A stretch of DNA of 54,437 bases. Origin: Peptococcaceae bacterium (GTDB lineage Bacteria > Bacillota > Desulfitobacteriia > Desulfitobacteriales > Syntrophobotulaceae). The position numbers were made by a program, and so were the translations under genes. This document shows, piece by piece, positions 9,178 through 54,236 of this stretch (its first letter is position 1; every line of letters starts with the position of its first letter). Below the pieces are notes generated by a model that was not told the DNA's origin, did not search any database, and was given only the letters and a program-made list of their open reading frames with translations. The DNA lies in assembly GCA_012521215.1 (NCBI GenBank), contig JAAYMU010000100.1:1-54437 (forward strand), in the 5' to 3' direction.

Positions 9178-9267
9178 GCCTTAATTGGAAAAAATATAGA
9201 AAAATAGGCATTTCCATCCCTTTTGAAGCGTATCTATTACCAAACAGCTTGCAGGGGAGGATGTGTT

Positions 9268-10494
9268 TTGGATATTACTTGGAACGATATTTGGAAAGCT
9301 AATCAGGACGTTTTTATTATGTCAGGCTTTGAAGAATGTACGGAAGAAAAAAGGAAGAGTTGGCGTTTATCTTCTCACTTCAGCTATTTTAGTACTGGGG
9401 ACATAAATCTTCGTGTTGGTATTATTGCTTGTCGGAATGAATATAGAGACGAAGATTTTTTATTTGAGGGTATTTCCTGGGGAAACTATATTGGCAATGG
9501 AGTTCGGACTGTACTTTATTTTGTAGCCCAAAATTTCTCGCCGGTTTTTATTAATGCTATTGCTAAACTTGGCGGCAACATTTCAGCCAAGGCTGTTTAT
9601 TGGCGGGAAAAGCTTACTCCTAGCCTATATCCCGTTCAGGAAACTGAATATTTAAACCCTAGCTTAATTCCTGATATCTTTTTACCAAGGCCTGACTGGT
9701 CATTTTGGCAAAAACAACTTAATCCGGTAGCTTGGAACCAATTGCAGGTCATTAAAGAGTTTTTTAAGGGACTGGAGAAGAGGAGGGTCAGGACGGTATT
9801 TGAAAAAAATAAGATTATCTTTCGTTGGGGACCCTTTGATATTGCAGAAGTAACTCTTAAGAACAATAAGTTTGAGTTATCGTCCAAAGTAAAATGGACC
9901 CGCAATAAAAACATTGTTGCTAAGTTTCTGAAGACCGGCTGGGTAGATTATGCCGGCAATCTTAATGAAGAATTCCGAAGATCTATCTTAGGTATTATCG
10001 AATTATTAGAAAATATGGAAGCTGGCAGATGTTTTGATAACAAGGATTTGCTGGCTTTAAAAATTATTACAGATCGGGAATTTTTGCCCAAGCATTTTGG
10101 GAGCTACCTGGAATATCCTTGGCTGATTAAGAACCGCAAAAGTATTCTAAATAATGCTAACCTTTTCTATTTTTTTACCTCCAGTCAAATCAATGTTCTC
10201 CATCCTATTATTAACAAAACTATTTTGAAAATGGTGCAGACTCTTTTGATTTCATCATTTTTTGAATTATGGGATAGAAAAAAGAAGACTTATGCAGAGA
10301 GTTCGAATAGAAAACTAAAGCATAAAACCGTTATCTTATCCACTTCTAATCTCATTGATGAGCTACGTTTATGTCAATGTTGGCTCCAAGATCCTCAATG
10401 TTTTCCTATATATATAATCCCTGATGACTGGAAAACCGAAGGCCTTAAAGATACTAAAGAAATGTTGCCGCTGAATGATGCTGGTTTTATTTGA
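9268..10494 (+). CDS. Hypothetical protein, 408 aa
   Basis: Not recognised. TTG 9268 is preferred because AGGGGAGG at 9253-9260 gives a seven-base spacing. An upstream in-frame TTG at 9223 lacks a ribosome site. The protein is rich in tryptophan and aromatic residues, with no signal peptide and no obvious catalytic motif. Residues 175-230 look like beta strands with a basic character, and a longer helical part follows. It ends 86 bases before rnhA. It could be a lineage-restricted structural or regulatory protein; I assign no function. Confidence 0.75.
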   Translation: MDITWNDIWKANQDVFIMSGFEECTEEKRKSWRLSSHFSYFSTGDINLRVGIIACRNEYRDEDFLFEGISWGNYIGNGVRTVLYFVAQNFSPVFINAIAKLGGNISAKAVYWREKLTPSLYPVQETEYLNPSLIPDIFLPRPDWSFWQKQLNPVAWNQLQVIKEFFKGLEKRRVRTVFEKNKIIFRWGPFDIAEVTLKNNKFELSSKVKWTRNKNIVAKFLKTGWVDYAGNLNEEFRRSILGIIELLENMEAGRCFDNKDLLALKIITDREFLPKHFGSYLEYPWLIKNRKSILNNANLFYFFTSSQINVLHPIINKTILKMVQTLLISSFFELWDRKKKTYAESSNRKLKHKTVILSTSNLIDELRLCQCWLQDPQCFPIYIIPDDWKTEGLKDTKEMLPLNDAGFI

Positions 10495-10580: not shown

Positions 10581-11048
10581 ATGACACTTAAAAAAGTAGT
10601 TATTTATACAGATGGAGCATGTTCCGGTAACCCTGGCCCCGGAGGGTGGGGTGCCGTTCTTAGGTACGGTCAGCATACCAAGGAAGTATCCGGATATGAA
10701 GAGATGACCACCAATCAGAGAATGGAATTAACTGCGGCTATAGAGGCCTTAGAATTGCTCAAGGAACCCTGTGAGGTTGAACTTTACAGTGATAGTGCTT
10801 ATCTGATTAATGCCTTCAAGCAAAAATGGCTGCAAAAATGGTTGCAAAATGGTTGGCTCAATGCCCAAAAAAAACAGGTGGAGAATATAGACTTGTGGAA
10901 AAGACTCCTTGATCTCGATGCTAAACATAAAATTAAGTGGATAAAAGTCAAAGGACATGCCGGGAATCCAGACAATGAAAAATGTGATCAGTTAGCCAGA
11001 AAGGCTATTGCGCAAGGCTTGCTTGCTCAGCAGCTTCGACAATCTTAG
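10581..11048 (+). CDS. rnhA: Ribonuclease HI
   Basis: A 155-aa RNase HI, which degrades the RNA strand of RNA:DNA hybrids during replication and repair. The four acidic catalytic residues are visible: D11 in YTDGACSGNPGPGGWG, the glutamate of QRMELTAAIEAL, the aspartate of YSDSAYLINA, and the aspartate of NPDNEKCDQLA near the C-terminus, preceded by KGHAG. ATG 10581 is chosen because ATAGGA lies eight bases upstream and the length then equals the family norm. An ATG at 10566 has no ribosome site. Confidence 0.96.
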   Translation: MTLKKVVIYTDGACSGNPGPGGWGAVLRYGQHTKEVSGYEEMTTNQRMELTAAIEALELLKEPCEVELYSDSAYLINAFKQKWLQKWLQNGWLNAQKKQVENIDLWKRLLDLDAKHKIKWIKVKGHAGNPDNEKCDQLARKAIAQGLLAQQLRQS

Positions 11049-11110
11049 CTAAAAAAGATGAAAATTTTACCAAGGAATTTTCGCACCTAGCTAGAAATAT
11101 AAGATATAGA

Positions 11111-11459
11111 AAACAAATAACCGCTCATTCTTGCGACTGAAAATGACAATATGTTGTCACGGTTGGCGACGATATCGCGTAGTCGGAATGAGGGCTTATT
11201 TGTTTAGAAGATTGAAATGGAGGTATGTTCAGGCTTGATTCTATCCTGAATTCCTGTACCCATAATAGTAGACATGCTATTTTTCGCAGGAGCGGGATGG
11301 ATTTGAAGACAGGTTTAGGATAGGAAATAGCCTCGGACATTCAATCTTCAAAGTTAGAAAAAAGACCCTGCAGTGTCGTCTAAACAAACATGGGCTGTAT
11401 TAGGTTTATATAAACCGGTCGGAATCTGCAGCCCAATAAAGGAGCTCAAAGGCTCCTTT
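11111..11459 (+). ncRNA. Structured RNA candidate: three-way junction plus long rod, ending in a terminator
   Basis: No convincing gene lies here, but two adjacent RNA modules do. Module A: AAACAAATAA (11111-11120) pairs with TTATTTGTTT (11196-11205), CTCATTC (11124-11130) with GAATGAG (11186-11192), and CGACT (11134-11138) with AGTCG (11181-11185). They enclose hairpins TGACAA/TTGTCA (11144-11159) and GCGA/TCGC (11166-11178). Module B: GAAGATTGAA (11207-11216) with TTCAATCTTC (11340-11349), then ATGTTC/GGACAT, AGGCT/AGCCT, CTATCCT/AGGATAG and CCTGT/ACAGG nested inward to 11309. A third hairpin, TGGGCTG/CAGCCCA (11391-11435), leads to a terminator. It may be a free RNA or the leader of the downstream methyltransferase gene. 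I recognise no known riboswitch. Confidence 0.7.
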
Positions 11460-11465
11460 TTTCTT
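11438..11465 (+). terminator. Intrinsic terminator closing the 11111-11459 RNA
   Basis: AAAGGAGC (11438-11445) pairs with GCTCCTTT (11452-11459) around a six-base loop and is followed by TTTTTCTT-type sequence. Confidence 0.9.
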
Positions 11466-11483
11466 AGGGCGACATACTCAACT

Positions 11484-11506
11484 AATCCCGTAAAGGGATT
11501 TTTTTT
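11484..11506 (+). terminator. Second intrinsic terminator before the methyltransferase gene
   Basis: AATCCC (11484-11489) pairs with GGGATT (11495-11500) around GTAAA, followed by six further T. It lies only 25 bases behind the preceding terminator, so it may be a fail-safe or a second regulated stop. Confidence 0.82.
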
Positions 11507-12793: not shown

Positions 12794-12940
12794 ATGGAAT
12801 TCAAGTCTGAATATTATACTTCGTGGGAAGATTATGTTAAAGAAAACGAAATTGATACAGAAAATGAAGATGTAATTAAAGCCAATACCCAACCATATGA
12901 AGAAATGGTTTTCGACTTTACAATGTGGCTGGTCATGTAA
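12794..12940 (+). CDS. Small acidic protein, 48 aa
   Basis: ATG 12794 sits behind an excellent GGGAGG site (12781-12786) and opens a 48-codon frame rich in Glu, Asp, Tyr and Trp, ending in MWLVM. It begins 38 bases after the methyltransferase stop and ends just before a strong terminator, so it is probably the last gene of that transcript. It carries no signal peptide, metal motif or recognisable domain. It could be a small partner of the methyltransferase; only position supports this. Confidence 0.65.
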   Translation: MEFKSEYYTSWEDYVKENEIDTENEDVIKANTQPYEEMVFDFTMWLVM

Positions 12941-30839: not shown

Positions 30840-31490
30840 AAAATAAGAAAGTTTCTCACAGGCATGGGGCGTTATTCTAGTGCACAGAACGATTGTCGGA
30901 GGGCGGGCCTAAGAATCCGCTAAGGGCACACCGATGAAGTTCCTGGTGGTGGCTCGAGGACGCCCAGTCGCGGGCTGCTGCTGGGAGTTAAGGACTTAGG
31001 GGGATCTACAATGGCATGTAGGCGTTACCCTTTGTCCGTGGAGGCCCAGGTTCGTGGCTTAATTGAAATCAGGCTACGGCTTGGGGATGAACCTGCATTA
31101 GGAAGGGACTTAGTGCAGTGTAGCCTGCCTTGAGGTGGAGAAGTTGGGAAGGCGCGAAACGGTAAATAAATATCGGCAGGTATTTATTTACCAGCCGGAA
31201 ATTCTTCTCTGCAAAAGAGGCTAGGACAATCGGGAGTGTGAAGGAAAACTTCTAGAGCGCTGTCAAAAAGGATTAAAGTGCGGACTAAGTGGCGATCAAG
31301 TTCCGAAAGTGGTGACACTTCGGGCTAGGAGTAAAGGGAAACCGCCTTTTTGGGAAACCAAAAGGATCCTAGCGGGAAAACCTACTTGACCTAAGCCGTA
31401 ACGTTTACTTTTTGACTTCCCTAAACCTGTAGAAACTTTATTATTTTATGGTAAGAATAATAAGTTTTAAAGATCCTTAGGAAAGGATCT
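30840..31490 (+). ncRNA. Large structured RNA, ~600 nt, candidate OLE RNA
   Basis: A terminal helix closes the element: AAAATAA (30840-30846), AAAGTTTCT (30848-30856) and ACAGG (30858-30862) pair with CCTGT (31426-31430), AGAAACTTT (31431-31439) and TTATTTT (31441-31447). Inside are GTCAAAAAG (31262-31270) with CTTTTTGAC (31408-31416), GGTAAATAAATA (31161-31172) with TATTTATTTACC (31181-31192), AGGTTC/GAACCT near 31050/31090, and a GAAA-loop hairpin near 31345. The GC content is above the surroundings and no ORF is coherent. RNase P, tmRNA and SRP signatures are absent. Size, complexity and host type fit OLE RNA; I could not compare with its covariance model. No OLE-associated protein gene adjoins it. 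Confidence 0.68.
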
Positions 31491-53832: not shown

Positions 53833-54236
53833 GTGCGCCACGCATGGTGCGTAGCTAGGCGGTGAAAGTCCGCTATGGGGGCTGGTAGTTGCCAACCATT
53901 AGCTTAAGGCAAGGGTGTCCCTCGCGAGAGGGAATCTGAAGGAAGCCGGCGGCAAAGTTCCGACCCGAGGAACACGAATCATATTAGGCATATACTGTGG
54001 GATGAGCCTGCCAAACAAGGCAAAATCCAATAAACTGCACGGACACAGTATATGTAGATATGGCGGGTACATGGGATGAAAGTTACGTGCCTTACCGTGG
54101 GAGGTCTCACGGACGCATGGAACGTATTTGCGAAATGCGGTTGAAACAAGATTTGTCGTGAGAAGTCAGCAGAAGCCATAGTACGGAGGTGTTCAAGATA
54201 CCGAAGGAAGGGCCGAACCAAAGGAGGTGTGGGTCA

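Follow-up and report, generated by a model that had tools for sequence, protein, structure and literature searches.

Large structured RNAs are rare in bacteria, and several of them have proved to be important machines or regulators. The raiA motif or ModT RNA (RF03072), found in Gram-positive bacteria, is a free-standing structured RNA of large size, which acts in trans and is tied to the growth transition and to sporulation (PMC11706538). The 6S RNA (RF00013) is a free RNA displaying a long rod and a stationary-phase role, and OLE RNA (RF01071), whose model comprises 616 positions, is a large ornate RNA of anaerobic and extremophilic Firmicutes. In this work, we analyzed a stretch of 54,437 nucleotides from a Peptococcaceae bacterium (contig JAAYMU010000100.1), referred to as the window, and we describe a new RNA family, absent from the Rfam catalogue and carried by the majority of the genomes in a single order of spore-forming anaerobes.

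Like raiA/ModT, this RNA is large, structured and free-standing and belongs to Gram-positive bacteria; with 6S RNA it shares a long rod and the nature of a free RNA. It differs from raiA/ModT in lacking any RF03072 or sequence match, either in the region (E up to 10) or in its homologs (E up to 1 and 0.5), in its sigma-H-type promoter and its presence in a single order, and in its surroundings, as the nearest genes did not include comFC or raiA, the reported neighbors of ModT; a search for raiA over the relatives likewise gave no match, a weak result given that the control gave no signal. Neither the three-way junction domain nor the 3' hairpin resembles 6S RNA, and the 6S RNA of the same genome occupies a separate locus (G000:C170:5821-5999, 59.6 bits), the region itself being without an RF00013 match. 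The size, the rod shape and the apparent stationary-phase link might suggest a divergent 6S or raiA/ModT RNA; with 6S found elsewhere in the genome and neither family among the Rfam matches of region or homologs, we regard this reading as highly unlikely. No similarity to OLE RNA was found.

More generally, an earlier note on this DNA had recognized no known riboswitch, T-box or housekeeping RNA class here, and the Rfam search that it proposed agrees. Rfam 15 yielded no credible match in the region, with ten sub-threshold chance matches at E up to 10, and the homologs, searched with E limits of 1 and 0.5, likewise gave only chance matches below threshold; furthermore, no description of this RNA was found in the open-licence literature. 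As separate observations, the window carries an OLE RNA of the known family at 30848-31439 (+), matching the whole model with 435.7 bits, and group II intron domains at its end (53918-54213, +; Rfam 15). A near-perfect 80-base inverted repeat at L010 1033-1113 matches many miRNA models through shape alone.

A conserved structured RNA with its own promoter and terminator

The folding of positions 11111-11459 exceeds chance by a wide margin (z -7.7, dinucleotide shuffles), the segment 11090-11500 reaching -134.4 kcal/mol versus a shuffled mean of -97.6 (sd 4.8), with 0/100 dinucleotide shuffles matching it. The minimum free energy structure displays the three-way junction, long rod, 3' hairpin and terminator that the earlier note had drawn, and both terminators that it had reported were located (11438-11459 and 11484-11500). 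While these elements and the fold stood, the conserved upstream promoter had been overlooked, and the RNA, placed from 11111 onward in that note, probably starts a few bases earlier, at about 11105, judging from the -10 element. The core is the 5' three-way junction (P1, P2, P3), after which come the rod, the 3' hairpin and the terminator. The RNA measures ~360 nt in the window, and its relatives range from roughly 200 to 550 nt. The features are as follows:

11035..11041, +, Spo0A-box-like site TTCGACA (reverse complement TGTCGAA), overlapping the end of rnhA
11071..11099, +, sigma-H-type promoter: -35 CAAGGAATT, 11-nt spacer, -10 CTAGAAATA
11105..11465, +, predicted ncRNA transcript, its start taken from the -10 and its end from the T run of the terminator
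11111..11206, +, 5' domain, three-way junction P1/P2/P3, with covariation in 47 sequences
about 11111-11137 paired with 11180-11206, +, P1, with double changes in 9/9 modelled pairs
11144..11159, +, P2 hairpin UGACAA-UAUG-UUGUCA, one pair A-U versus G-C
11166..11178, +, P3 hairpin GCGA-CGAUA-UCGC, 99.5% of cells paired
11207..11349, +, rod: basal helix GAAGATTGA/TCAATCTTC, purine bulge, second helix, variable middle, apical motif
11219-11223, +, GGAGG, unpaired in the one-sided 5' purine bulge of the rod
11392..11434, +, 3' hairpin GGGCTGTA...TGCAGCCC with conserved internal GGTCGGAA, with covariation
11438..11465, +, intrinsic terminator with a T run

Compensatory changes across 47 homologs, gathered as the earlier note had proposed from an alignment of related genomes and assessed by a shuffle test, back the helices. 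In this alignment (A5), which was fitted to the model and hence leans towards the modelled structure, 90.8% of cells are paired versus 39-59% for slid structures, and 120 cells are changed on both sides and still paired, versus a shuffled mean of 36.5. The covariation values of P1, P2 and P3 were reached by only 0-1 of 500 shuffles. One pair of P2 is AU in 15/47 sequences and GC in 30/47, a diverged copy builds P2 from GGCTAA/TTAGCC, and P3 shows a change from A-U to G-C in 4 of the 47 sequences. Single-sequence folds in which P2 and P3 alone were fixed recovered P1 in nearly all cases. A MAFFT alignment (A4) was set aside, P3 being misplaced in two sequences.

Within the rod, the closing basal helix is nearly invariant, so that covariation speaks neither for nor against its pairing, and the second helix displays double changes in 6/10 pairs; the middle is variable in sequence and the apex carries the conserved motif GCAGGARYGG. 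The 3' hairpin has double changes in 5/8 pairs, with 12 such cells versus 3.5 in shuffles (10 sequences). Both families with the RNA, namely f1 (the window's own) and f2, retain the 5' domain and the 3' hairpin, the latter reading CTCAG...GCACCTCT...AGAGTGGGTCGTTGC...CTGAG in f2, whose rod has been remodelled or is lacking, as exemplified by L032 for the latter. A role as a CsrA sponge was considered and rejected, as most f2 copies lack the apical GGA motif of the rod. A GC-rich hairpin with a T run occurs at the equivalent position in most homologs, and a terminator belonging to the RNA was seen wherever the 3' end was inspected, save for L007 (none clear) and L024 (3' end altered).

A protein-coding signal across the region, which the earlier note had named as contrary evidence, was sought and none was found: in an alignment of 11 homologs, 82/96 gaps have lengths not divisible by 3, and these sequences share no ORF at a common position, a 71-aa antisense ORF being confined to the window. 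A short-peptide mRNA, for which the resemblance of GGAGG to a ribosome-binding site could be invoked, or a non-functional remnant is therefore hardly credible in view of these observations and of the strong covariation. Other open reading frames nearby include one of 48 aa after the URO-D gene (12794-12940, +), which has a good ribosome-binding site and matches no Pfam family, and a 423-aa protein (9223-10494, +) likewise without a Pfam match; homologs of the C-terminal part of this protein lie upstream of rnhA in the relatives L002-L004.

Distribution and gene neighborhood

The RNA was found in 52/74 genomes of the order, corresponding to 20/25 in f1 (all except genus g5), 32/46 in f2 and 0/3 in the third family. 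A blastn search of 61 relatives gave 11 genomes with homologs, the window's own included; R1, a covariance model built on the 5' domain, reached 20/74 genomes of the order, and models built from the sequences found with R1 (R2) and from 47 sequences (R3) together reached most of f2. Matches were inspected visually for the presence of the promoter and of the P2 and P3 hairpins, and 47 were aligned as A5. The 3' hairpin and terminator of L081 and L082, two weak R3 matches, suggest that these are genuine, and three genomes (L085-L087) were found via synteny, downstream of the same LUD/Fe-S gene, with strongly diverged copies that keep the promoter and 3' hairpin. The RNA is absent at that place in genera g16 and g14 and in one g12 genome, as a terminator and the next gene come immediately after the Fe-S gene there.

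Outside the order, R1 and R3 gave nothing convincing in ~400 genomes of the phylum, a search in which few candidates were scored per genome and a very diverged copy could escape. G369, which belongs to another family of the class, gave an R3 match (E 0.008) that has neither P3 hairpin nor promoter and was discarded, and the R2 matches L064, L067 and L068 and the R3 match L083 were rejected on the same grounds. No match was found in phage, plasmid and viral collections.

Hosts include Syntrophobotulus, Gracilibacter (Gracilibacter sp. BRH_c7a), several Peptococcaceae MAGs, and the genomes G014, G037, G046 and G029, which are putatively Dehalobacter sp. DCA, Desulfosporosinus meridiei, D. orientis and D. 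acidiphilus. The strong covariation, the readable promoter and the homologs in cultured species (Syntrophobotulus glycolicus, and putatively Dehalobacter and Desulfosporosinus) make this RNA directly testable, in bacteria that include some used to clean up chlorinated solvents as well as sulfate reducers. Among these hosts, S. glycolicus (G008) is a spore former with a genome of 3,406,739 bases (PMC3156405).

Neighboring genes differ among homologs and include rnhA, LUD/Fe-S protein, helicase and HAD hydrolase genes, among others; four homologs are preceded by rnhA and about 31 by the LUD/Fe-S gene. The gene following the RNA in the window does encode a URO-D protein, as the earlier note had proposed (PF01208, 33 bits versus a cut-off of 23.9). 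From this arrangement came the suggestion of a cis-regulatory RNA, i.e., a riboswitch or attenuator of the downstream gene, acting here on corrinoid or one-carbon metabolism through the URO-D methyltransferase; its same-strand position ahead of that gene, its ending in terminators, and the HAD-hydrolase gene that regularly lies downstream in f2 would fit. However, the URO-D gene is downstream in only 2/47 homologs, namely the window itself and the relative nearest to it (L001, L002), and unrelated genes take its place elsewhere, varying in both families, so that no constant same-strand downstream gene class accompanies the RNA. A convergent helicase gene comes next in six homologs, and an RNA of this orientation cannot be its leader. 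Further, the HAD gene has its own promoter-like site past the RNA terminator, and no conserved alternative antiterminator was seen. Together with the RNA's own promoter, these observations speak against the proposed cis-regulation, which we hold to be very unlikely; the note's alternative of a free RNA is favored by the conserved promoter, the terminator and the varied neighbors.

Promoter and possible role at the sporulation transition

An AGG-type -35 and a GAA-type -10, separated by 11-12 nt and located 42-55 nt before P2, were recognized by script or by eye in 47/47 homologs; in L040, L042, L044 and L047 the best score of the script chose another site, CAAGGA...AAGAAGTA being visible by eye. 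The published sigma-H consensus is RNAGGAWWW/RNNGAATWW (PMC8510167), and the 47 homologs agree with RNAGGAWWW-N11-12-RNNGAATWW, the first position of the -35 being C, not R, in most. Matches without the rest of the RNA (L064, L067, L068) are also without the promoter. A scan of the window's own genome with the strict pattern gave four sites, none before a recognized sigma-H gene, and thus the promoter assignment rests on conservation and not on the match alone. A sigma-A reading with TCGACA as -35 was discarded, as it lacks a conserved -10 downstream.

A TTCGACA site is located about 36 nt upstream of the -35, and its reverse complement TGTCGAA is the consensus of the Spo0A box (0A box). In most f1 homologs this site, of consensus TTCGACAA(T/A), keeps a fixed distance from the promoter; it is clear in f1 and degenerate in f2 (TTCAACA, TTCTACA). 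The upstream regions of spo0A share the layout GAAGGAATT or GAAGGATTT-N11-GTCGAA in G000, G005, G011, G013 and G014, with GCAGGAATT or GCAGGATTT instead in G008 and G009, and a similar -35 and an identical 11-nt spacer are thus common to the RNA promoter and several spo0A promoters of the same genomes. As to spo0A itself, its promoter reads G(A/C)AGGA(A/T)TT-N11-GTCGAA, of sigma-H type, in these seven genomes (G000, G005, G008, G009, G011, G013, G014), with a possible Spo0A box across the -10. Spo0A is encoded in 73/74 genomes of the order, whether the RNA is present or not, so that presence and absence do not tie the RNA to sporulation.

The reading that we consider the most probable is a stand-alone structured ncRNA gene under sigma-H and probably Spo0A, whose product would act in trans at the stationary-phase/sporulation transition, most likely by binding a protein or RNP. 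The RNA would be transcribed by RNA polymerase with the stationary-phase and sporulation sigma factor sigma-H, probably under Spo0A; its expression, as the promoter suggests, would fall at the end of growth or the onset of sporulation, and the partner would most likely be bound via the nearly invariant P2/P3 junction.

The purine bulge of the rod points to another possibility, namely an RNA interacting with ribosomes or mRNAs, in which translation would be dampened at the growth transition through binding of GGAGG to 30S subunits or pairing of the RNA with mRNAs. The bulge extends up to AAGGAGGU, complementary to the 3' end of 16S rRNA, and the unpaired GGAGG occurs in 16/20 f1 homologs, 21/47 overall versus 5.9 expected from shuffles, which suggests a possible 16S rRNA contact in the window's family only. 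Nevertheless, purine-rich bulges may have other uses, and with GGAGG in only 5/27 f2 homologs, this contact cannot be the shared function; as an account of the RNA, we find it rather unlikely.

Regarding the putative trans-acting RNA under sigma-H, its role may be like that of raiA/ModT, analogous and not homologous. More tentatively, it is conceivable that the family constitutes an RNA of the Spo0A/sigma-H regulon across the order, an RNA component of the sporulation decision with, in organohalide-respiring and sulfate-reducing anaerobes, a part like that of raiA/ModT in clostridia, in which case the different fold would imply an independent origin. Few RNAs take part in that decision, and this one would be among them if it acts when sporulation begins.

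Finally, in Desulfosporosinus-like genomes (loci L085, L086, L087, L029 and L040), the gene past the RNA terminator has a second sigma-H-type promoter, GAAGGAATT...GAATA, and therefore the two neighboring units may share control.
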